A stretch of 64,000 nt of DNA from Spirulina major PCC 6313 (lineage in GTDB: Bacteria > Cyanobacteriota > Cyanobacteriia > Cyanobacteriales > Spirulinaceae), in contig NZ_KV878783.1 of assembly GCF_001890765.1 (NCBI RefSeq), forward strand, positions 1,527,174 through 1,591,173, in the 5' to 3' direction. Shown here in pieces: positions 328-35,839 of this stretch. The translations under genes and the position numbers were made by a program. Below the pieces are notes generated by a model, which searched no databases, was not told the DNA's origin, and saw nothing but the letters and a program-made list of their open reading frames with translations. Positions within the stretch are counted from its first letter, which is position 1; each line of letters opens with the position of its first letter.

Positions 328-3300
328 ATGTTCGGCAAACGCAAATCGGCCCGTCGCCATCGTCAGTCCTTGATTCTTGAGCCCATCTGGACACCCATGG
401 GAGTCATTCCCGGCGGCGATGATGGTGATGTTGATCTCAGTGACTTTGATGGCGGAGGGCTTGATAGCTTTGAAGGCACAGTGGATCTCGTCGATGACTA
501 CACCTCAGGGGTCTTCACCGTTGGCGACTCCGGTGATATCACGATTGATTTCCTCTACGATGGCGGCTTCTACAGCAACGGTGAAGTCGGGATTTTCAGC
601 CTTGAGGGGATGGACGAATTTGAAATCGGCAGCCAAGACTTTATCAAAGAAGCCGCCAATCGTGCCCTCAGTGGCTCCGAATTGGGCCATGTGGTGATTT
701 CCGATGCCACCGAAGGCGCACGCTTTAGCGGTCACATGGGTGAGGGCAATTTTAATTCCGGCGACTATCAAGAAGGCAGTGCCGTGAAGATGCGAGCTGG
801 GGATCAATTCGGCATCATGCTGGCGGCGAATCACTCCATGGAAGAAGTGGCCGAGGGTAAAACCTGGAGCGTCCGCTTCTCGATGTCCACCGCTAACCCC
901 GATGACGGTCTCCAGTTTGGCCAAGTCGCCGATGTTACGGGTGATGGCAATACCTTCGCCTTTGAAGATTTGAGTGTGGATAGCAGCGATCGTGACTACA
1001 ACGACATCGTCTTCCAAATCCAAGGCGCAACCGGTGAAGCGGCTCTGATGGATGAAGTGGTCGCTGAAGGTCAAGACTGGCGCACCGATGATGTGGGGAT
1101 TGAGATCCTGGCCTACACCACCGAGGTCATGGAAAAACTGGAGCTAGAAAACCGGGGCCGCCAGACTTTTGTGGGGATTATTGACACGGGTTTTGCCGCC
1201 GATAATCCCGATCTTGATTATGACAACATCCAGTTGGGCAGCGATTTTGTCGATGGTGATACCAATCCTTTGCTGGATGATGCTCAAGGAAATGAGCACG
1301 GGACACATATCGCAGGGATCATTGGCGCGACTCAAGATAATGGTCTCGGCATTGATGGGATTAATGATGATGCACCGCTTTGGTTTGGTCGTGCGATCGG
1401 GTCGGGTGAATGGGAAAATTCTCTCAAGGAGTTTGTTGATGCAGCCGCTGATTCGGGTCAACCCAATGCCGTGGTTAACCTGAGTTTGGATCTCACTCAA
1501 GTTGACGCGAATGGTGAGGTGACAACGCGCTATGAATTTACCCCCCAAGAACGACAGGCGATCGAATATGCGCGGCAAAATGGCGTGTTGCTGGTGGTCT
1601 CGGCGGGGAATGATGGCGGTGTGATGTCGGTGTTGGGTCAGGCTTCCCAGGAGTTTGACAACATCATCACGGTGGGTGCAGCCGATGGTACGGAACGCGC
1701 TGACTATTCCAGTTACGGCAATGGCTTAGACCTCTTGGCGGAGGGCGGCACTGAGGAAAATCCGATCACATCGCTGGTGGATGATGGTATCGGCACGATG
1801 GCGGGAACGTCGGTGGCAACGGCTCAGGTGACGGGTGCAGTGTCGCGGGTCTGGGCGGCGAATCCAGAGTTAAGTTATCGCCAGGTGATCGCCATTCTCA
1901 AAGAGACGGCAACGGATCTGGCTACGCCGGGTTGGGATGCTGAGACGGGTGCGGGGTTGCTCAATTTAGCAGCAGCGATCCAGGTGGCACGAGAAACCCA
2001 AGGTGAGGTTTATACTCCTGCGGCGATCGTTGCACCGGATAGTTGGGCAGGTGCAGGTCAGTTTACGCCCGGTGAACGAGCCGTTCAAAATTATGACGCT
2101 CACGGCTCAGGACGAAGGTTTTATAAAGGTTGGCTACGGGATTACAACACCGTTGATAAACTCTGGTTCACTGTCAACTCCTTTACACCCAATTTCCAAT
2201 TCTCACTAGATCAATATGGCGCACGAATTACGCTGCGAGATAAGTATGGCGACAAGGTTGTCTCTGGCAGTCCGCATAATGCTGTGGCTTGGTATGGCGC
2301 AGCGGATCTCTGGCCTGGCGAATATTATCTGGAAGTCGAGAAAAAAGATAGCGATGATATTGACTACCAGGTAGCTATGAACTTCTATGGTGAATCTGTT
2401 GGAGATCATGATGATGGAACATTTACGCTTCCATATCCTGAGCAACCGGAGCCAGAAGAACCAGAGACTCCTGAACCCGAAGAACCGGAGGAGCCAGAAG
2501 AACCTCAAACTCCTGTTGCACCAGCGCCAGGGACGGGTAAGGTTCCAGCCAATGCGGGGAGTCATGTCAATACGGTAACGAGTCTGCTGGGTGTGGTGAC
2601 ACATTATTACAATAATGGTCACTTGATCGCTGGCCCCTTTGGTTTGTCTTATTGGTATCAGTACGGTACGGGTCGCTCCTTAATTGATGGGCTGTTACCA
2701 TCACCGAACCGTCCGATTGAACTTGAAAATGTGGGTAAATACACATTTGAGATCAAACCAACAACCGAGAATCTCACATTTAACCGTGGTCAAGACTGGA
2801 CAACATCTACAGGGTATAAATTCGCTTTCCAGAATGACGGCAATTTGGTGATGCGGAATCCTGAGGGTCAAGCTATCTGGGCAACAGGGACACATGACAC
2901 AGGTGCAGACAGGTTTGTGGTTCAGGCAGATGGAAATGTTGTCCTTTATGAGGGCAGCGAAGCACTTTGGGCAACGGATACGAATGATAATCCTGGTGCG
3001 TACTTTGCGATTCAGGGTGATGGGAATTTAGTTGTTTACTCTTCCGATGATGATCCTTTGTTTGAGTCAGGAACACATACAGATCCAGGGACATTAACTG
3101 CATCGTTGGATTGGTTATCTACTCCTTTCACCAATCAGCAATATATCCAACGATTATATGGGCATAGTGAAGGTACTTGGACTCGTGGTTTGGATCCTGA
3201 CCATAACGGAATAGATACTACGGATACAGTGGCTCCGTATCAAGTCCGAGCTTTAGTTGGAGGTGAAGTTCTTCGTATGCGTAATGGTGGAAGGGTATTT

Positions 3301-3651
3301 ACTGATGTTCGCTGGCAACTAACAGATCCTGAGTACGGATCGGGAATTAATCCTGCTACTCAAATGCGTGAATATCAAATATGGAATGACAATAACGAAG
3401 TTGTGATCTACAACCAAGACTTAGATCGCACATTTATATATTGGCATTTTGCGAATGTAGATGTTCAAGTGGGTCAGGATATTAATCCTGGAGAAGTTCT
3501 TGGTATTGAAGGTGATACAGGATTTTCGGCTGGCCAACATACTCATTTAGAAGTTCGTCAAGGACGAGGAACAGGAGGTGCAGTAGAAAATCCATTAGTA
3601 ACATTGGGTAATGCACGAGGCAGGGAGATTTTAGATCGAAACTACCATTAG
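328..3651 (+). CDS. Subtilase (S8) - bulb-type lectin - M23 peptidase fusion, with DUF4114-like N-domain
   Basis: The protein has 1107 residues and looks like a multidomain extracellular protease. In order: a DUF4114-like segment (about 60-235, ending in the DRDYNDIVF signature); an S8 subtilase with Asp286 (GIIDTG), His324 (NEHGTH) and Ser495 (AGTSVAT); a pre-peptidase-like beta domain (about 590-690); a Pro/Glu linker (about 705-735); three bulb-lectin QxDGNxV-type repeats (about 820-910); and a C-terminal M23 domain with HNGID (His959, Asp963) and HTH (His1071, His1073). Both active sites look intact, so it may cut protein and also peptidoglycan-type peptides. There is no classical signal peptide; the basic N-terminus contains LEPIW, so export by a non-Sec route is an inference. 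The start is fixed by AAGGAG 8 nt upstream. The gene is monocistronic, with a terminator just downstream. Domain calls are motif-based. Confidence 0.85.
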   Translation: MFGKRKSARRHRQSLILEPIWTPMGVIPGGDDGDVDLSDFDGGGLDSFEGTVDLVDDYTSGVFTVGDSGDITIDFLYDGGFYSNGEVGIFSLEGMDEFEIGSQDFIKEAANRALSGSELGHVVISDATEGARFSGHMGEGNFNSGDYQEGSAVKMRAGDQFGIMLAANHSMEEVAEGKTWSVRFSMSTANPDDGLQFGQVADVTGDGNTFAFEDLSVDSSDRDYNDIVFQIQGATGEAALMDEVVAEGQDWRTDDVGIEILAYTTEVMEKLELENRGRQTFVGIIDTGFAADNPDLDYDNIQLGSDFVDGDTNPLLDDAQGNEHGTHIAGIIGATQDNGLGIDGINDDAPLWFGRAIGSGEWENSLKEFVDAAADSGQPNAVVNLSLDLTQVDANGEVTTRYEFTPQERQAIEYARQNGVLLVVSAGNDGGVMSVLGQASQEFDNIITVGAADGTERADYSSYGNGLDLLAEGGTEENPITSLVDDGIGTMAGTSVATAQVTGAVSRVWAANPELSYRQVIAILKETATDLATPGWDAETGAGLLNLAAAIQVARETQGEVYTPAAIVAPDSWAGAGQFTPGERAVQNYDAHGSGRRFYKGWLRDYNTVDKLWFTVNSFTPNFQFSLDQYGARITLRDKYGDKVVSGSPHNAVAWYGAADLWPGEYYLEVEKKDSDDIDYQVAMNFYGESVGDHDDGTFTLPYPEQPEPEEPETPEPEEPEEPEEPQTPVAPAPGTGKVPANAGSHVNTVTSLLGVVTHYYNNGHLIAGPFGLSYWYQYGTGRSLIDGLLPSPNRPIELENVGKYTFEIKPTTENLTFNRGQDWTTSTGYKFAFQNDGNLVMRNPEGQAIWATGTHDTGADRFVVQADGNVVLYEGSEALWATDTNDNPGAYFAIQGDGNLVVYSSDDDPLFESGTHTDPGTLTASLDWLSTPFTNQQYIQRLYGHSEGTWTRGLDPDHNGIDTTDTVAPYQVRALVGGEVLRMRNGGRVFTDVRWQLTDPEYGSGINPATQMREYQIWNDNNEVVIYNQDLDRTFIYWHFANVDVQVGQDINPGEVLGIEGDTGFSAGQHTHLEVRQGRGTGGAVENPLVTLGNARGREILDRNYH

Positions 3652-3688
3652 GTCATCCCGCTTTTCAGTTGCTGAAATGACGTTAAAT

Positions 3689-3722
3689 GATCAGGTACTT
3701 TTGCCTGATCGCACTTTTTTTC
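3689..3722 (+). terminator. Rho-independent terminator of the subtilase gene
   Basis: GATCAGG (3689-3695) pairs with CCTGATC (3704-3710) and is followed after GCAC by a run of seven T (3715-3721). A weaker hairpin lies just before it at 3662-3676. It sits about 40 bases after the stop codon. Confidence 0.75.
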
Positions 3723-3824
3723 TTAACACAAAAGAATACAACCCCATAAACCCCAACGTACCGCCGCCCAAACCCTCCCCGCAGCGGTGCATTTTCTTCA
3801 TCACCCCCACCCCAAGACGCAAGA

Positions 3825-4074
3825 GGGCGCAAGCGTTGCGCCCCTACACATATTCAAAATTCATACCACCCGTAGGGGCGGATCGCATCCGCCCAAACCC
3901 ACCACGCCACAAATCCGCCAATTCCCCATCCATCGTTTCCCCATTTCGCAAAACCATTGGGCGCAAGCGTTGCGCCCCTACCAAAATTCACATCATCCGC
4001 CCACACCCATCACACCGCAAACCCATCAATTCCCCATCCCGTTTAACCATTGGGCACAAACGTTGCGCCCCTAC
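3825..4074. repeat. REP-type palindrome cluster upstream of the RAYT gene
   Basis: There are four short palindromes. Three have the form GGGCGCAAnnnTTGCGCCC followed by CTAC (3825-3847, 3959-3981 and a variant with GGGCACAA at 4052-4074). One is a relative, GTAGGGGCGGATcgcATCCGCCC, in the opposite orientation (3872-3894). The stems are 8 bp with 3-nt loops, and the conserved flank is CTAC, or GTAG in inverse orientation. This is the layout of REP elements that RAYT transposases recognise. The whole 3652-4168 interval is otherwise non-coding and low in complexity. Confidence 0.8.
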
Positions 4075-4168
4075 CAAAATTCACATCACCCGTGGGGATG
4101 AATGCGATCTGCCCGATCGCGCCCCCGCGAGTACAATAAACCCGTTGTCCCATGCGCCGCCCATCGCC

Positions 4169-4759
4169 ATGAAATACAACCCCAAAATCCACCATCGCCA
4201 ATCCATTCGTCTGCGGGGTTACGACTACACCCAACCTGGAGCATATTTTGTCACCATCTGCACCTACAAAAAACAATGTTGGTTCGGAGAAGTCCGCAAC
4301 GGCACAATGTATCGCAATCAAATCGGGAACTTGGTTGCCCACGAATGGTTAAAATCGCCTCAAATTCGGGATAACGTGAAGCTAGATGCTTGGGTTGTGA
4401 TGCCGAATCATCTGCATGGCATTGTCTGGTTGCTCGAAACCAAAACCCGTAGGGGCGCAACGCTTGCGCCCAGACCCTGCGCAACCCCACACCAAGGATG
4501 GGGGCGATCGCGCAACGAATTAGGCTCATTTATCGCCGGATTTAAAAGCAGCGTCACCCGCCAAATCAATCAACTCCGAGAGCATTCTGAATTACCGATC
4601 TGGCAGCGCAACTATTACGAAACAATCATCCGAGACGACACTGCATTACACTCCATCCGAAACTACATCCAACAGAATCCAGAACAGTGGCTACAGGATA
4701 AAGAACATCCTCAACGCCATACCGAATTCACAAAATTATCCCTCGATTTGGTGTTCTGA
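4169..4759 (+). CDS. REP-associated tyrosine transposase (RAYT, Y1 superfamily)
   Basis: The protein has 196 residues. RAYTs are single-copy, domesticated relatives of IS200/IS605 TnpA that nick REP hairpins by HUH-tyrosine chemistry. The HUH pair is His81-x-His83 in VMPNHLHG, and the catalytic Tyr is Tyr149 or Tyr150 in NYYETII. The N-terminal YDYTQPGAYFVTICTYKK is typical. The frame is open back to 3677, but that part runs through REP palindromes and has no homology-like character, so I chose the ATG at 4169. Residues about 94-101 (RRGATLAP) are encoded by a REP palindrome lying in frame within the gene (4449-4471), in the loop between the HUH motif and the Tyr helix. REP copies lie on both sides, which supports a REP/RAYT unit. 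Confidence 0.85.
   Translation: MKYNPKIHHRQSIRLRGYDYTQPGAYFVTICTYKKQCWFGEVRNGTMYRNQIGNLVAHEWLKSPQIRDNVKLDAWVVMPNHLHGIVWLLETKTRRGATLAPRPCATPHQGWGRSRNELGSFIAGFKSSVTRQINQLREHSELPIWQRNYYETIIRDDTALHSIRNYIQQNPEQWLQDKEHPQRHTEFTKLSLDLVF
4449..4471 (-). repeat. REP palindrome inside the RAYT coding sequence
   Basis: GTAGGGGCGCAA followed by CGC and TTGCGCCC is the reverse orientation of the palindromes at 3825 and 3959. It lies in frame and does not break the RAYT reading frame. Confidence 0.8.
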
Positions 4760-4770
4760 ACCAGACTTCT

Positions 4771-4920
4771 GTAGGGGCGCAAGCGTTGCGCCCGATCGCA
4801 TCCGCCCGATCGCACCAACCCGATCACGTCCATCCAAACCCCCCGATGATTGCCGCACACCTATTTACAAATATTGAGCGCAAATTGGGTGCAATTTGGG
4901 CGCAAGTGTTGCGCCCCTAC
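4771..4920. repeat. REP palindromes downstream of the RAYT gene
   Basis: Two copies are seen: GTAGGGGCGCAAGCGTTGCG... at 4771-4793, starting 11 bases after the RAYT stop, and GGGCGCAAGTGTTGCGCCCC at 4898-4917, followed by TAC. With the cluster at 3825-4074 they bracket the transposase in both orientations. Confidence 0.8.
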
Positions 4921-4956
4921 AGGGGTGTTACCATCCTCAATAAACCCCAACACATT

Positions 4957-6800: not shown

Positions 6801-9800
6801 ATGGCGAGTCACAAAGTCCTCATATTAGATGGTGATAGTGTTGTCCGCAGCAAATTGCGCCGACTACTCCCCCCCGGCAGCTATGAAATTGCGGAGGCTA
6901 GTGATGGCGAGTCAGGGCTAGCTCTGATTCACCAAGAACGGGGGCGGATTCGGTTTATTTTGCTCAATGCGGCGCTGGCGAAGGTGAGCGGTTGGGATGT
7001 GGTGGCTCACTTGAAAGCCGATTCAGATTTTCAACATATTCCCCTGGTGGTGATGCGGGGTTCCCAGCGTCAAGATCCGGATCTCACGGAGCCGGTCTAC
7101 GCAGCGGTGGAGGTTCTGGATAAACCCTTTGAGCGATCGCAACTCAAACGCGCCGTTAAAACTGCAATCCAAAAAGCGAAGGCTCTCAACCCACAGAAGA
7201 ACGCCCCCAAAGCGGTAAAAAAAGCGGTAGAACCTGCGATCGCGCCCCCCATACCTGAACCTCCACCGAAATTCTCCGCTCCTAAACCTCCACCACACCC
7301 CCCCACTGTTCCGCCAGCCCCGGTGATTCCAGCGATCGCGGACAATCCCCCAACGATTCCCCCCACAGACCCAACACCCGTTGAGGATCTCGACCCCACC
7401 GATCTAGAAAATGCCTTTGAAGACTATGTGGATTTTGGAAATTTAGCGGCAGAACAGCCAGAGGGGGATGATCCCTTTGCGGGGTTGGATGATTTTATGG
7501 CCTCCGCTGAAGCGTCCGAGACCCTCGACCTCCCCGAAGAACTGCAACTCATTGATGATTTTGAGGCCTTACCCCACGACCTCGAACAGCCACCCTTTGA
7601 CCCCACCTCCGGGTTTACTCAGCCGTTCATCCGGCCCCAAGCCTCAGAGGTGCAGTCCACCCCAGCCCCGTCTGATCCTGCCGTTCCCACCCCCTACACC
7701 CGCGACACCCAGACCCCGCCTGACCTGGAGCTAGAACCGGAGGATTTGGTTAATTCGCCTGCGTTGAGTTCAGAGTTTAGCCGGGGGGGGATGTTTAGTG
7801 CGCCGCCGGTGGGGGAGTTTTACGAGGAGGATGAGGCGATCGCGCCAGTCCCGCGTCCGTCTGCCGTCGTTCCCGCTGCGGATCTCACCGTGGCACCCGA
7901 TTCGGTGGAGGATACTGTCTTTGGCGATTTTGGCGTTGATCAGCCGTCCGCCCCGGATGACGCGCCGGAATCGGCCACCGATGACGTGCCGTTGGAGTTT
8001 AACCCAGAGGCCTTTTGGAATCAGGAGCCAGCGATCGCGCCGTCCCCCTCAGCCTTTGACCTCGACGAAGACGAGCACCCCTTTGAGGACGAAGATCTTT
8101 CTAGTTTTCTCACCCGGCCCGCCGCCATTCCGCCCCGCAAACTCGATGCAGAGGACGAAACCGACGATCTCTTCCTCACCCCCGACCCTGAACCCCCCTC
8201 CGATGATCTGGCCCCCCTAGATTTAGGGTTGGATCATCCCTTTGCAGAGATACCAGCGGACTCGATGGCCGCGACGAACGCCAGCGATGCCGCCTCAGAC
8301 TTTCTCGCCGAGCCAGATCCCGCCCCCATCCCCGACCCGATTATTGATCCGGCCCTGGCCTATACCCCAAGCGACCAGCCCGATGCAGAGATACCGTTAG
8401 CCGGGGAAGACGAGGGGGAATCTCAGCTTACGGTCGGGGCTGACACTGCCGATGTTGCCGGAACCGGGGATGATTTCACCCTAGGGAATGATTTTGAGTT
8501 TGATCTTTCAAGCTGGGAACCCGATGCGGTCACGCCGATGCCCGATCCCCTCCTAGATGCGGATGATCATCCGATCGCGCCCCTGGGAGAAATTCAGTTT
8601 GACCCCTCGGATCAACTCGAACCGGATACCGAGGAGAATACGGTGTTAGGCGAGACGCGATCGCCCGCCCCTCCCCCCACCGATCCAGGTGACCCCTTCG
8701 CCGCGCTCGATGATTTCACCCTGGCCACCCCCGACGCAGAAAACACCATCCTGGCAGATAAGCAAACCAGCCCCCCCATTGCCAACCGCCTCGAACAACA
8801 ACTGGATGCGGCCTTAGCCTCCGAGGATGCGGAAAAGGCTGATGATGGTGATGATGTCGATGTGCTCAACGACAGCCCCGAATATACCGTCCTCGAAGAC
8901 AAGCAAGAGATTGACCCGGCCCAGTTTCCGCGCTTTTCCTTTGAAAATCCTGACACCAAACCCACCCTGCTCCAAGAGGGCATGGTGACGCTGTTGGGGT
9001 TTGATGAAGTGAAGATGCGGTTTGAAAGCCGTCTTGAGTCCGAACGAAACGCCGCCCTCCGGGATGCCTTGGACTACGGAGAAGAAGGTTATGATCTGGT
9101 GATCAATGCCCTGCGAGACGAAGCGGGGCCAGTGCGTGACGCAGCGGAACAGTTGATTAAAGAACAGTTGCGCAAGTCCAAACACGCCCGCCCCCTCGCC
9201 CAGCAAGCCTGGTTAGAGGTGGAGTGCATCAGCGTCATTACGGGCCATTCCCATTGGGTGCAGACGGTGGCGATCGCTCAAGATAACCGCACCCTCGTCA
9301 GCGGCAGCAAAGACAGCACGATCAAAACCTGGGATCTGCGCACCGGCCGCGAAACCGGCACGATCACCGGCCATGCCGCCTCTGTCCTCTCCATCGCCAT
9401 CAGTCCCGACGGCGACCACATCATCAGCAGCAGCACCGACAACACGATCCGGATTTGGGACATTCACAACGGCACGGAAATTCAAGCGATTAGCGGTGAT
9501 GCCCACCATAAAATCTACGTCGTCGCCCTCAGCCCAGACGGCAGCGTGATCATCAGTGCCAGTGCCGACCAAACCGCCAAGCCGGAATTTGAAACCGGCC
9601 TTTCCGGGCTGCTTAGTTATCTCCCCTCAAAAACCACCTCGCCCCTGTTGTCGTTGATTAACTTCATTCGGCGCAGTCGGGAAATTAAGCTGTGGGATCT
9701 GCCCACGGGTAAAGTGAAAGGGAGTTTAGTGGGCTATTCCAAAGGGGTGACGGATCTCGCGATCACGCCCAAGGGGGATAAGGTGGTGAGCGGCAGTCGC

Positions 9801-10214
9801 GACCACACGATTAAAGTTTGGGATCTGGAAACGCGCAAAACCCTAAACACCCTCTGGGGCCATACCGATGAGATTCGCTCGGTGGTGGTGACCACCAATG
9901 GTCAATATGTGGTGAGTGGGAGTCGCGATCGCACGATCAAAATTTGGGATCTGCGCACCGGCCATGTCCTCCGCACCCTGCGCGGCCACAGCCAATCCGT
10001 CACCTCCATCGCCATCAGCCCCGACGGCAAAACGATCATCAGCGGCAGCCGCGATGCGACCTTGAGAATCTGGGACTTTGACAGCGGCGAACACCTCAAC
10101 ACCTTAATGGGTCACACCGACCTGATCCGCTCTGTGGCCATCAGTCCCGACGGCCGCACGATCGTCAGCGGTAGCCGCGACAATACGATCCGGGTGTGGG
10201 CGGTGAAAGGGTGA
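6801..10214 (+). CDS. Pseudo-receiver / disordered linker / seven-bladed WD40 protein
   Basis: The protein has 1137 residues. Residues 1-120 form a CheY-like receiver with the acidic pair (Asp10, Asp12) and Lys108 (LDKPF), but the phospho-acceptor position holds Asn56 (FILLNAAL). It is therefore probably a non-phosphorylated pseudo-receiver. Residues about 125-735 are Pro/Asp/Glu-rich and look disordered. A helical, HEAT-like segment follows (about 740-800, EEGYDLVINALRDEAGPVRDAA). Residues about 808-1137 hold seven WD repeats (GH...SPDG...SGSxDxTIxxWD), enough for one closed propeller. Blade 3 is interrupted by about 35 extra residues (near 924-963). There is no catalytic domain, so a scaffold role is the natural inference. 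The flavoprotein gene starts 11 bases downstream on the same strand. Confidence 0.8.
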   Translation: MASHKVLILDGDSVVRSKLRRLLPPGSYEIAEASDGESGLALIHQERGRIRFILLNAALAKVSGWDVVAHLKADSDFQHIPLVVMRGSQRQDPDLTEPVYAAVEVLDKPFERSQLKRAVKTAIQKAKALNPQKNAPKAVKKAVEPAIAPPIPEPPPKFSAPKPPPHPPTVPPAPVIPAIADNPPTIPPTDPTPVEDLDPTDLENAFEDYVDFGNLAAEQPEGDDPFAGLDDFMASAEASETLDLPEELQLIDDFEALPHDLEQPPFDPTSGFTQPFIRPQASEVQSTPAPSDPAVPTPYTRDTQTPPDLELEPEDLVNSPALSSEFSRGGMFSAPPVGEFYEEDEAIAPVPRPSAVVPAADLTVAPDSVEDTVFGDFGVDQPSAPDDAPESATDDVPLEFNPEAFWNQEPAIAPSPSAFDLDEDEHPFEDEDLSSFLTRPAAIPPRKLDAEDETDDLFLTPDPEPPSDDLAPLDLGLDHPFAEIPADSMAATNASDAASDFLAEPDPAPIPDPIIDPALAYTPSDQPDAEIPLAGEDEGESQLTVGADTADVAGTGDDFTLGNDFEFDLSSWEPDAVTPMPDPLLDADDHPIAPLGEIQFDPSDQLEPDTEENTVLGETRSPAPPPTDPGDPFAALDDFTLATPDAENTILADKQTSPPIANRLEQQLDAALASEDAEKADDGDDVDVLNDSPEYTVLEDKQEIDPAQFPRFSFENPDTKPTLLQEGMVTLLGFDEVKMRFESRLESERNAALRDALDYGEEGYDLVINALRDEAGPVRDAAEQLIKEQLRKSKHARPLAQQAWLEVECISVITGHSHWVQTVAIAQDNRTLVSGSKDSTIKTWDLRTGRETGTITGHAASVLSIAISPDGDHIISSSTDNTIRIWDIHNGTEIQAISGDAHHKIYVVALSPDGSVIISASADQTAKPEFETGLSGLLSYLPSKTTSPLLSLINFIRRSREIKLWDLPTGKVKGSLVGYSKGVTDLAITPKGDKVVSGSRDHTIKVWDLETRKTLNTLWGHTDEIRSVVVTTNGQYVVSGSRDRTIKIWDLRTGHVLRTLRGHSQSVTSIAISPDGKTIISGSRDATLRIWDFDSGEHLNTLMGHTDLIRSVAISPDGRTIVSGSRDNTIRVWAVKG

Positions 10215-33214: not shown

Positions 33215-35839
33215 ATGAACGAAGCCGAAACCAGAGCCGAACTGATCGACCCCGCCTTAAAAGCCGCAGGCTGGGGAGAAATTCCAGAAAGTCGCATCCG
33301 CAGAGAAGCGATCGCCCCCGGTCGCCTGGTGGGTTCCGGTCAGCGCAGCCGCTCCAAAACCTGCGATTACGTCTTGGTCTATAAAAATCAAAAACTCGCC
33401 GCCCTCGAAGCCAAAAAAGACGAGCTGCACCCCACCGAAGGACTCGGCCAAGCCAAAGACTACGCCGAACGATTACAAACCCCCATCGCCCTCTGCACCA
33501 ACGGCAAAAAAATCTACCAAGTCGATATGCGCACCGGGGCAGAACAATACATCGATCGCTACCCCACCCCCGCCGAACTCTGGGAACTTGCCTACCCCAC
33601 CCAAAACCAGTGGCGCGATCGCTTTGCCGCCATCCCCTTTGAAGACAAAAGCGGCACATGGGAAGCCCGCTACTACCAACATAATGCGATCGAAGCCGTC
33701 CTCGAAGCCATCAGCCAAGGCAAAACCCGGATGCTGCTCACCCTCGCCACCGGAACCGGGAAAACCTTCATCGCCTTTCAAATCGCCTGGAAACTCTTCC
33801 AAGCCAAATGGAACATCAGCGGCGAACCCACCCACCGCCCCCGCATCCTCTTTCTCGCCGATCGCAATATTCTCGCCAACCAAGCCTTTAACGCCTTCGG
33901 AGCCTTCCCCGATGATGCTCTCGTCCGGATCGACCCCAAAGAAATCAAGAAAAAAGGCAAAGTCCCCACCAATGGCAGCCTCTTTTTCACCATCTTTCAA
34001 ACCTTCATGACCGAGATCCCCCCTAACCCCCCTTCCCAAGGGGGGAAGCCGATAGGCAGGGGGGAGCAATCCGCCAACTTTAGCGAGATCCCCCCTAGCC
34101 CCCCTTGGGAAGGGGGGAAGCCGATAGGCAGGGGGGATCAATCCGCCAACTTTTACGAGATCCCCCCTAACCCCCCTTGGGAAGGGGGGAAGCCGATAGG
34201 CAGGGGGGATCAAGCCAACTTTAGCGAGATCCCCCCTAGCCCCCCTTCCCAAGGGGGGAAGCCGATAGGCAGGGGGGATCAAGCCGCGAATTTTACCGAG
34301 ATCCCCCCTAGCCCCCCTTCCCAAGGGGGGAAGCCGATAGGCAGGGGGGATCAAGCCAACTTTTACGACTATCCCCCCGACTTTTTCGACCTCATCGTGA
34401 TCGACGAATGCCACCGGGGCGGAGCCAACGACGAAAGCACCTGGCGCAAAATTCTCGAATACTTTTCCCCCGCCGTCCAACTCGGCTTAACCGCCACCCC
34501 CAAACGGGATATCAACGGCGACACCTATCAATATTTTGGCGAACCCCTCTACACCTATTCCCTCAAAGAAGGTATTAACGACGGCTATTTAACCCCCTTC
34601 AAAGTCGTTCAATTCACCACCACCCTTGATGACTATCTCTATGATCCCGATGATGACGTGATCGAAGGGGACATCGATGCAGCGCGAACCTACACAGAAA
34701 AAGACTTTAACCGCATTATCGAGATGGAAGAGCGCGAAAAACAGCGGGTGCAACTCTTCATGGCAGCGATTGACCAGAACGAAAAAACCCTTGTGTTTTG
34801 TGCCACCCAAGACCATGCCCTAGCGGTGCGCGATCGCATTAACCAGATGAAAATCAGCACCGACCCGAACTATTGCGTTCGAGTGACGGCCAATGATGGC
34901 AGCATCGGCGAAACGAACCTTAAAACCTTCCAGGACAACGAAAAAGCGATTCCCACGATTCTCACCACCTCCCGCAAACTTTCCACAGGCGTAGACGCTC
35001 GCAATGTGCGGAATATTGTCCTGATGCGTCCGATTAAATCCATGATCGAGTTTAAGCAAATTATCGGGCGGGGGACGCGACTTTTTGACCATAAAGACTA
35101 TTTCACCATCTACGATTTCGTGAAAGCCTACGAACATTTCAATGATAAAGAATGGGACGGCGAACCCACTGAACCCGTCGCCATTGACCCCAAACCCCAC
35201 AAAGAACCAACAGAACCAAAACCCGATGATGGGGAGAACGATGAACCAAAATCCCGCCAAAAAATCAAAATTAAGTTAGCCGATGGCAAAGAGCGGGAGC
35301 TAGCCCACACCCAGACCACGACGTTTTGGGATGCGGATGGCAAACCTATTGCCGCTGAAGACTTTATCAAAAAATTATTCGGTGAACTGCCGGAACTCTT
35401 TAAAAATGAAGCCGAACTCCGCACCCTCTGGGGAAAACCGGATACCCGTAAATCATTGCTGACGGGACTGGCCGAAAAGGGCTATGGCGATGAACAACTA
35501 CAAGCGATCGCTCGCATTGCCGCAGCAGAGAAAAGCGACATTTACGATGTGCTGACCTGGATTGCCTATGCTGCCACGCCAATCACGCGCAAAGAGCGGG
35601 TGATCAAGCATCGGGATTTAATTTTTTCCAAGTACACCGGCAAACAGCAAGAATTTTTAGATTTCGTCCTCAACCAATACATCCGGGAAGGCGTGAGCGA
35701 ACTCGACCGAGGCAAATTACCCCAACTCATCGAGATTAAATATTTGACGGTCAATGAAGGGTTAGCGGTGTTAGGCCATGATATCGCTCAGGTTTTTGCG
35801 GATTTCCAAGCGGATTTATATACCGGAGAAGCGGCGTAA
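33215..35839 (+). CDS. hsdR: Type I restriction enzyme, helicase-nuclease subunit R, with inserted repeats
   Basis: The protein has 874 residues. The N-terminal HSDR_N nuclease has TCDYVLVYKNQKLAALEAKKDE, a PD-(D/E)XK site with Asp and ExK. The motor domain has Walker A (LATGTGKTF, about 178-186), DECH at 397-400 and TGVDARNVRNIV with QIIGRGTR for the RecA2 half. It cleaves DNA after translocation when HsdS finds an unmodified site. Residues 267-384 are an insert of five repeats just before the DECH box, absent from ordinary family members, which have only a short loop there. Because hsdS is broken, the enzyme has no visible local specificity partner. It starts 3 bases after the second toxin gene. 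Confidence 0.93.
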   Translation: MNEAETRAELIDPALKAAGWGEIPESRIRREAIAPGRLVGSGQRSRSKTCDYVLVYKNQKLAALEAKKDELHPTEGLGQAKDYAERLQTPIALCTNGKKIYQVDMRTGAEQYIDRYPTPAELWELAYPTQNQWRDRFAAIPFEDKSGTWEARYYQHNAIEAVLEAISQGKTRMLLTLATGTGKTFIAFQIAWKLFQAKWNISGEPTHRPRILFLADRNILANQAFNAFGAFPDDALVRIDPKEIKKKGKVPTNGSLFFTIFQTFMTEIPPNPPSQGGKPIGRGEQSANFSEIPPSPPWEGGKPIGRGDQSANFYEIPPNPPWEGGKPIGRGDQANFSEIPPSPPSQGGKPIGRGDQAANFTEIPPSPPSQGGKPIGRGDQANFYDYPPDFFDLIVIDECHRGGANDESTWRKILEYFSPAVQLGLTATPKRDINGDTYQYFGEPLYTYSLKEGINDGYLTPFKVVQFTTTLDDYLYDPDDDVIEGDIDAARTYTEKDFNRIIEMEEREKQRVQLFMAAIDQNEKTLVFCATQDHALAVRDRINQMKISTDPNYCVRVTANDGSIGETNLKTFQDNEKAIPTILTTSRKLSTGVDARNVRNIVLMRPIKSMIEFKQIIGRGTRLFDHKDYFTIYDFVKAYEHFNDKEWDGEPTEPVAIDPKPHKEPTEPKPDDGENDEPKSRQKIKIKLADGKERELAHTQTTTFWDADGKPIAAEDFIKKLFGELPELFKNEAELRTLWGKPDTRKSLLTGLAEKGYGDEQLQAIARIAAAEKSDIYDVLTWIAYAATPITRKERVIKHRDLIFSKYTGKQQEFLDFVLNQYIREGVSELDRGKLPQLIEIKYLTVNEGLAVLGHDIAQVFADFQADLYTGEAA
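34013..34366 (+). repeat. Five in-frame tandem repeats (69-72 bp) inside hsdR
   Basis: Unit starts are 34013, 34085, 34157, 34226 and 34298, and the last ends at 34366. Each encodes EIPPxPPxxGGKPIGRGxQ plus a short ANF(S/Y/T) tail (24, 24, 23, 24 and 23 codons). At DNA level a unit begins GAGATCCCCCCTA and ends near GGGGGGATCAA, so the two halves can pair as a hairpin. The same C-run/G-run motif occurs in the MITE-like elements at 27 and 51 kb. All lengths are multiples of three, so the frame is preserved. Confidence 0.92.

Follow-up and report, generated by a model that had tools for sequence, protein, structure and literature searches.

Domain organization of a receiver-HEAT-WD40 protein

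In a 64,000-nucleotide stretch of Spirulina major PCC 6313 (contig NZ_KV878783.1, positions 1,527,174 to 1,591,173; hereafter the window), an open reading frame (ORF) with an ATG start at positions 6801-10214 of the forward strand encodes a protein of 1137 amino acids, in which ORF reading, Pfam and AlphaFold2 models place a receiver, an acidic arm, a HEAT-like segment and a WD40 propeller with an insert, in this order. We refer to this protein and its orthologues as family A, and to a paralogous sister family as B. The combination of these parts, its confinement so far to the Spirulinaceae and the graded loss of the receiver's phosphate site are new, while the single parts are of known kinds.

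The receiver spans residues 1-127 (6801-7181) and matches Pfam Response_reg over residues 6-120, scoring 44.7 bits where the cut-off is 30.2. Its AlphaFold2 model, built from 11 sequences, is CheY-like with strands and helices in the order of CheY (mean predicted local distance difference test, pLDDT, 85.8; predicted template modelling score 0.82), although the fourth helix (residues 87-102) is unformed and residues 90-96 are the least certain; the best solved structures retrieved by Foldseek are receivers, including a cyanobacterial RpaA. The AAT codon at 6966-6968 encodes Asn56, which aligns with the phosphorylated Asp of canonical receivers. Taking the landmark meanings from a 2025 review (PMC12632262), the window receiver has further lost the second residue of the acidic pair (DD2, now Gly11), the conserved Thr (Arg86), the residue at D+4 (Ala60) and that at K-3 (Val105), and it retains the first acidic residue (DD1) and the Lys. 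It thus reads D-G-N-R-K where a canonical response regulator has an acidic pair, Asp, Thr/Ser and Lys. It belongs to PF00072, the first mark of a bacterial pseudo-receiver in the sense of PMC12632262, and it lacks residues of phosphotransfer (DD2 is G, D is N, T is R), which is the second, so that its assignment as a putative pseudo-receiver is supported.

The arm (residues 131-716; 7191-8948) is acidic, Pro-rich and of low complexity, with 24% D+E, 3% K+R, 17% P and a net charge of -119, a composition from which disorder is predicted. It is joined to a HEAT-like helical segment (residues 734-805; 9000-9215) that has no Pfam match at the cut-off and is seen as five helices in the structure model. 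The propeller (residues 807-1135; 9219-10205) has seven WD40 stretches by Pfam and 28 strands in the model, that is seven blades of four. Between strands 2 and 3 of blade 3 lies an insert of 36 residues (926-961; 9576-9683), visible in both alignment and model, in which a hydrophobic stretch is followed by Arg-Arg.

A sequence-only reading of this DNA had described a receiver with Asn56 in place of the phospho-acceptor, a disordered arm of about 600 residues and a propeller with seven repeats, enough to close it, and some 35 extra residues in blade 3, and these features were borne out, the disorder of the arm as a prediction from composition. The HEAT-like helices, the motif copies of the arm and the additional active-site losses go beyond it.

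Graded loss of the phosphate site in families A and B

Receiver homologues were drawn from 19 relatives and 13 Spirulinaceae genomes, and beyond these from broader sampling at the level of order, class and phylum. Nine receivers of family A are complete enough to be read at position 56, where four have Asp, two Asn, two Glu (G006 and G011) and one Gly. The canonical catalytic set is complete in only one of them, G007 (D-D-D-T-K), followed by G398 with D-E-D-T-K, both with Phe at K-3; G004 retains Asp together with Phe at K-3, and G003 retains Asp and has lost Thr, DD2 and K-3. G002 resembles the window receiver, having likewise lost the second acidic residue, Thr, the Pro at D+4 and the K-3 aromatic. 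In family B the degeneration is deeper, position 56 being Lys in ten, Asn in two and Thr in one of the 13 receivers, with no Asp at all. The closest receivers outside these families, stand-alone proteins of about 200 residues, carry D-D-D-S-K, Pro at D+4, Gly at D+8 and Phe at K-3 in all 52 rows (43 distinct), which are the best-scoring search rows, more such rows existing, and not a random sample. These stand-alone receivers are presumably phosphorylated. Judging from these alignments, loss of the phosphate site has been under way in both A and B.

It had been proposed that, should homologues have Asp, Asn56 would be a change specific to this strain. This did not hold, as the two receivers of the genus that can be read both carry Asn, and Glu, Glu and Gly are found in three further orthologues. 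In a phylogeny of 66 receivers, from which the five active-site columns were removed and which has few columns and several long branches, A forms one group (support 100/95) and B another (99/83), and position 56 requires at least 8 residue changes, with at least 4 between Asp and other residues. A long fusion in another family of the order (G014, L030:5910-7889), with a receiver having Asn at the phosphate site, an arm, a HEAT-like segment and a propeller, has its receiver placed beside the stand-alone group and is possibly a second, independent fusion. The wide receiver searches covered best rows, and other such fusions may exist outside the Spirulinaceae.

The alpha4 region was considered as a further site of loss, being shorter by 3-4 residues in four of nine A receivers and by one residue in two, with proline at 2.8 versus 1.3; this is only suggestive of a family trait and was not adopted.

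Selection on the receiver

The ratio of nonsynonymous to synonymous substitution rates (dN/dS) was 0.065-0.123 for the A receiver in four pairs, compared with 0.25-0.32 in three arms. In the pair G006-G011, both of which have Glu56, the receiver gave 0.065, the arm 0.28 and HEAT-WD40 0.026; the corresponding values for G007-G398 were 0.11, 0.32 and 0.07. The window protein compared with G002 gave 0.07 for the receiver and 0.25 for the arm, and with G003 0.12 for the receiver, these ratios being rough as synonymous sites are near saturation; its last 446 residues compared with G001 gave 0.11. No stop was found within the nine A receivers read. The tested A receivers are under purifying selection, and the receiver does not look like a decaying domain.

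Distribution of the two families

Family A is present in 10 of the 13 Spirulinaceae genomes. The insert-bearing region was found in nine of them at E <= 1e-10, and G002 is the tenth, its receiver, arm and HEAT start lying on a contig that ends there. Two weak matches, in ORFs of 729-733 residues of G003 and G009, were discarded, being kinase-WD40 proteins without the insert by eye. The members named by the contig scan are Spirulina sp. DLM2.Bin59, SIO3F2, CCY15215 and CS-785/01, S. subsalsa FACHB-351, Spirulinaceae SM2_1_0 and Cyanobacteria bacterium SBLK. The A protein of G001 is cut by the contig end and has a partial receiver. In a phylum sample of 386 genomes, in which 13 candidates per genome were scored so that copies could be missed, two matched the insert region at E <= 1e-15, namely the S. 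major genome itself and G004, both Spirulinaceae.

The B receiver is the best row in all 13 Spirulinaceae genomes. Behind nine of these receivers a propeller, or at least its beginning, can be seen, and in G001, G007, G009 and G398 the contig ends, or nearly so, within the B arm. In five genomes (G004, G006, G007, G011 and G398) A and B are in tandem on the same strand, B following A by about 60-110 bases, and in the other five A genomes B is elsewhere or on another contig. In the B gene of S. major (G000:C2 around 3052817; L032:7791-9955) the frame changes in a C-rich run of Pro codons, for which a sequencing error, a dead gene or a phase switch could account.

The HEAT-WD40 module, its insert and the arm motif

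The HEAT segment of a Nostoc punctiforme NIES-2108 protein (L063) retrieved the window gene with E = 8.2e-10 and 41 bits (40.2 bits in a second comparison), and in the same search 12 of the 19 relatives were matched, 10 of them with at least one match that is neither an A protein nor the G014 fusion. The S. major genome itself has three matches, the window gene and two others, among them L203, a tagged HEAT-WD40 protein of 408 residues without receiver, arm or insert. By this homology, the C-terminal half of the window protein is a HEAT-WD40 module of cyanobacterial type, which the same genome also encodes as a separate protein. L203 and six further stand-alone HEAT-WD40 proteins were read, and these proteins start with a tag, for example EYDAVLGGQ, which is followed some 15 residues further on by VLGGIEGVK and the HEAT helices. 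A strict tie of this tag to WD40 was abandoned, since of 16 tagged HEAT frames in relatives, 3 (L194, L206 and L211) had no match to a crude WD pattern and may have other C-termini. The DAVLGG pattern occurs at 13 places in the 19 relatives; of the 10 plus-strand places that were read, 4 are HEAT proteins and 6 are apparently coincidental.

The arm of the window protein carries four copies of the motif [DE]xT[VI][LF]x[DE], compared with 0.006 expected in shuffles: EDTVFGDF, the least typical (residues 370-377; 7908-7931), ENTVLGET (612-619; 8634-8657), ENTILADK (647-654; 8739-8762) and EYTVLEDK (694-701; 8880-8903), the last standing before the HEAT segment. Seven A proteins have three to four copies of this tag-like motif in their arms and three have a single copy, compared with 0.004-0.025 in shuffled arms; as the motif was defined from these same arms, the shuffle figures are descriptive only. 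In A proteins EYTVLEDK precedes TLLGFDEVK, at a distance of about 34 residues in the window protein. By eye, TVLEDK of the window resembles the DAVLGGQ tag and precedes the HEAT segment at a longer distance, the stretch being too short to show homology, and the tags of stand-alone HEAT proteins, unlike the arm motif, have no Thr. From position and resemblance, we infer that the arm motif could be an amplified HEAT tag.

Whether the motif is common to other proteins of the genome was considered and rejected: a strict DNA pattern, which misses the window gene's own copies 1 and 2, gave six places, two of them in the window gene, and each of the remaining four is a lone match in an unrelated context, in one case within a frame of 20 codons. 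A DPF-type motif, enriched in B arms and some A arms and at chance level in others, was not used. In the paralogue B of G008 (L161), the arm is built from a row of near-identical repeats, each some 38 residues long (SADPFGEVSDSLDEIVTPPPESETPQETADSIEDILQP), which can show a way for such arms to lengthen.

The blade-3 insert pointed out by the sequence-only reading is a fixed family trait and not an oddity, the region having a single ungapped length in all seven aligned rows, the window included. Over these rows 27 of 99 positions are invariant, and five of these (K, P, L, P and R) belong to the insert. The hydrophobic part reaches mean Kyte-Doolittle values of up to 2.95 in 11-residue stretches and is followed by [RK]R in eight of nine orthologues and CR in one, and in seven of nine no other stretch of HEAT-WD40 is as hydrophobic as the insert. 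In the model, residues 926-961 are mostly below a pLDDT of 50 and have no packing site on the propeller, and this low pLDDT may reflect the thin alignment (14 sequences, eight with the insert).

Genomic context and other features of the window

A conserved operon around A was not retained as a candidate, only B recurring beside the orthologues. When the CbiQ and HI0933-like neighbours of the window gene were compared by BLASTP at 1e-10 with the ORFs that flank the orthologues, on stretches of 12-19 kb, no match was found. Compared with NCBIfam, the window protein matched 24 families at E <= 0.001 and none at the curated cut-off. A role as a defence protein was set aside, the single PADLOC match (HEAT-ARM_XIII) lying in the WD40 part only, and so was a viral origin, as the five pattern matches of a viral contig scan do not encode a relative.

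Elsewhere in the window, an ORF of 1107 residues (328-3648) combines DUF4114, subtilase and Peptidase_M23 domains in one protein. At 3677-4940, a 32-base repeat containing the palindrome GGGCGCAAGCGTTGCGCCC is present in six copies (63-100% alike), and among them lies a Y1_Tnp (IS200-like) ORF whose first half reads through the repeats and which resembles a REP-associated transposase. A 72-base tandem repeat at 34012-34378 (4.8 copies of 24 codons each) falls within the open frame (33215-35839) that encodes a type I restriction R subunit.

A candidate docking scaffold and its alternatives

The window receiver has kept its fold and lost its chemistry, and a long charged arm links it to a propeller, which is the layout of a docking protein. 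Given the CheY fold and the purifying selection despite five lost landmarks, a binding role fits better than a phosphate switch. We therefore consider, at about even chances, that the protein is a Spirulinaceae scaffold made of a fused receiver and HEAT-WD40 module, with the window receiver as a phosphate-independent docking domain. Such a scaffold would have been built by the fusion of two ordinary cyanobacterial parts, the N-terminus descending from, or sharing a common ancestor with, the widespread stand-alone receiver of about 200 residues, and the C-terminus being the HEAT-WD40 module. The long acidic arm joining them, which seemingly amplifies a short tag found before HEAT modules, would set the distance and offer repeated short docking motifs. 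The window receiver would take up no phosphate and would dock constitutively, the favoured partner being the B receiver or else the stand-alone receiver or its kinase; B, a tandem sister gene with an even more degenerate receiver, is the first candidate. The HEAT-WD40 head, whose ring bears the hydrophobic, Arg-capped insert on one side, could hold a second partner or a membrane surface with that face.

Several observations weigh against this scaffold reading. The pocket is not erased, since DD1 is kept in all nine A receivers and the Lys in eight of nine. From their residues, G007 and G398 look able to accept phosphate, so that A as a whole cannot be called phosphorylation-independent; a phosphate-controlled ancestor of A is likely, and in some species phosphate may still have a residual role. 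Three of the 13 Spirulinaceae genomes (G005, G008 and G010; 99-100% complete) yielded no A and have B, 150 of 204 candidates having been scored for the insert region in G010, where copies could be missed. The B gene of S. major is 1.5 Mb away and is read in two frames, and besides B the flanking-ORF comparison found no neighbour common to the window neighbourhood and the orthologue loci. The insert is not the most hydrophobic stretch in the window protein (1.44 versus 1.67) or in G009.

The sequence-only reading had likewise suggested a scaffold, with a head that senses binding and not phosphate. This is supported for the window protein and does not extend to the family as a whole, given the Asp56 of four of nine orthologues and the full set of G007. 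Of the two findings that it had named as damaging, an Asp at the equivalent position was encountered in those four homologues, whereas a receiver failing to fold like CheY was not.

Family A could instead be a response regulator under phosphate control that has the WD40 part as its output, the Asn, Glu and Gly forms being locked off or on. The Asp-bearing orthologues, above all G007, G398 and G004, favour this explanation, and Glu can mimic a phosphorylated Asp, as the G006 and G011 receivers might. However, the window and G002 receivers have lost four other landmarks that the stand-alone receivers keep throughout, and G003 has kept its Asp and nonetheless lost Thr, DD2 and K-3, and we regard this explanation as unlikely. 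Similarly doubtful in our view is that the propeller insert is a membrane anchor, with the protein keeping a receiver-binding partner tethered to either the thylakoid or the plasma membrane: the hydrophobic stretches with their basic ends and the lack of a packing site in the model would suit such a role, but the stretch in the window protein is only mildly hydrophobic and too short to span a membrane, and the low pLDDT may have the cause given above. That the receiver is a decaying remnant, with only the HEAT-WD40 part at work as in its stand-alone form, would agree with the drift of several catalytic residues in A and B and with the existence of HEAT-WD40 proteins that have no receiver, but it is very improbable given the constraint on the receiver relative to the arm, the stop-free frames and the fact that the sole A protein without a full receiver, that of G001, is cut by a contig end and still shows the last receiver helix.

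A bolder extension of the scaffold reading, which we offer tentatively and do not expect to hold in full, is that A and B are sister scaffolds whose receivers have turned into docking domains, their relatives standing at graded steps from the full set of CCY15215 through partial sets to Asn, Glu, Gly or Lys. The pseudo-receivers might pair together or with the stand-alone receiver, whose phosphorylation would pick the scaffold, and the Thr motifs of the arm might be several docking, possibly phospho-threonine, sites.

Members of the Spirulina group are tightly coiled and glide; this analysis gave no evidence for a link of A to cell shape or motility. The 2025 review calls the on/off switching of pseudo-receivers a mystery (PMC12632262). 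Here a single architecture in a single lineage has orthologues ranging from the complete catalytic set to the loss of the phosphate site plus other landmarks, beside B, in which Asp is absent from the receivers of all 13 genomes, and a canonical relative invariant over the 52 rows. The role that remains for a receiver after phosphate loss thereby becomes directly testable by natural domain swaps.

Comparison with known systems

No paper on receiver-WD40 proteins of Spirulina or on the DAVLGG tag was found by title or abstract start in open-licence literature. The order, which the sequence-only reading had matched to no described system, is common to a Spirulinaceae family and occurs more loosely in its paralogues. 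The nearest stand-alone receivers (e.g. G000:C2:1628735-1629109) share 40% identity with the window receiver but differ from it in their canonical set, in a short tail that is a coiled coil by eye and in having no propeller. The stand-alone HEAT-WD40 proteins, such as L063 and L203, share the order of HEAT segment and propeller and a homologous HEAT segment, but have no receiver, no long arm and, in seven sequences read by eye, no blade-3 insert; their tag has Ala, Val or Leu instead of Thr, and its distance to the second VLGG is about 15 residues compared with about 34 in the window protein.

FrzS of Myxococcus xanthus is one of the closest known systems, and FrzS receivers are among the sequence matches of the window receiver in the Protein Data Bank (2gkg, 52.9 bits). 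The remainder of FrzS includes a long coiled coil, and we know of no WD40 propeller or HEAT segment in it; given the WD40 part, homology of the rest of the window protein to FrzS is unlikely, and no orthology is claimed. As with the window protein, the N-terminal receiver of FrzS lacks the Asp site and has the CheY fold, and it acts through a binding surface and not through phosphate, according to PMC1974792.

By this analogy, the best reading is that the window protein might work like FrzS without being FrzS. CikA is a histidine kinase, KaiA a clock protein and NblR a DNA-binding regulator, and their architectures are unlike that of the window protein. They do share with it a cyanobacterial receiver, in their case one that works without Asp phosphorylation, as stated in PMC12632262. 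The same review describes pseudo-receivers that are regulated via protein contacts, among them a FrzS-SgmX interface and possible heterodimers of pseudo-receiver and receiver.

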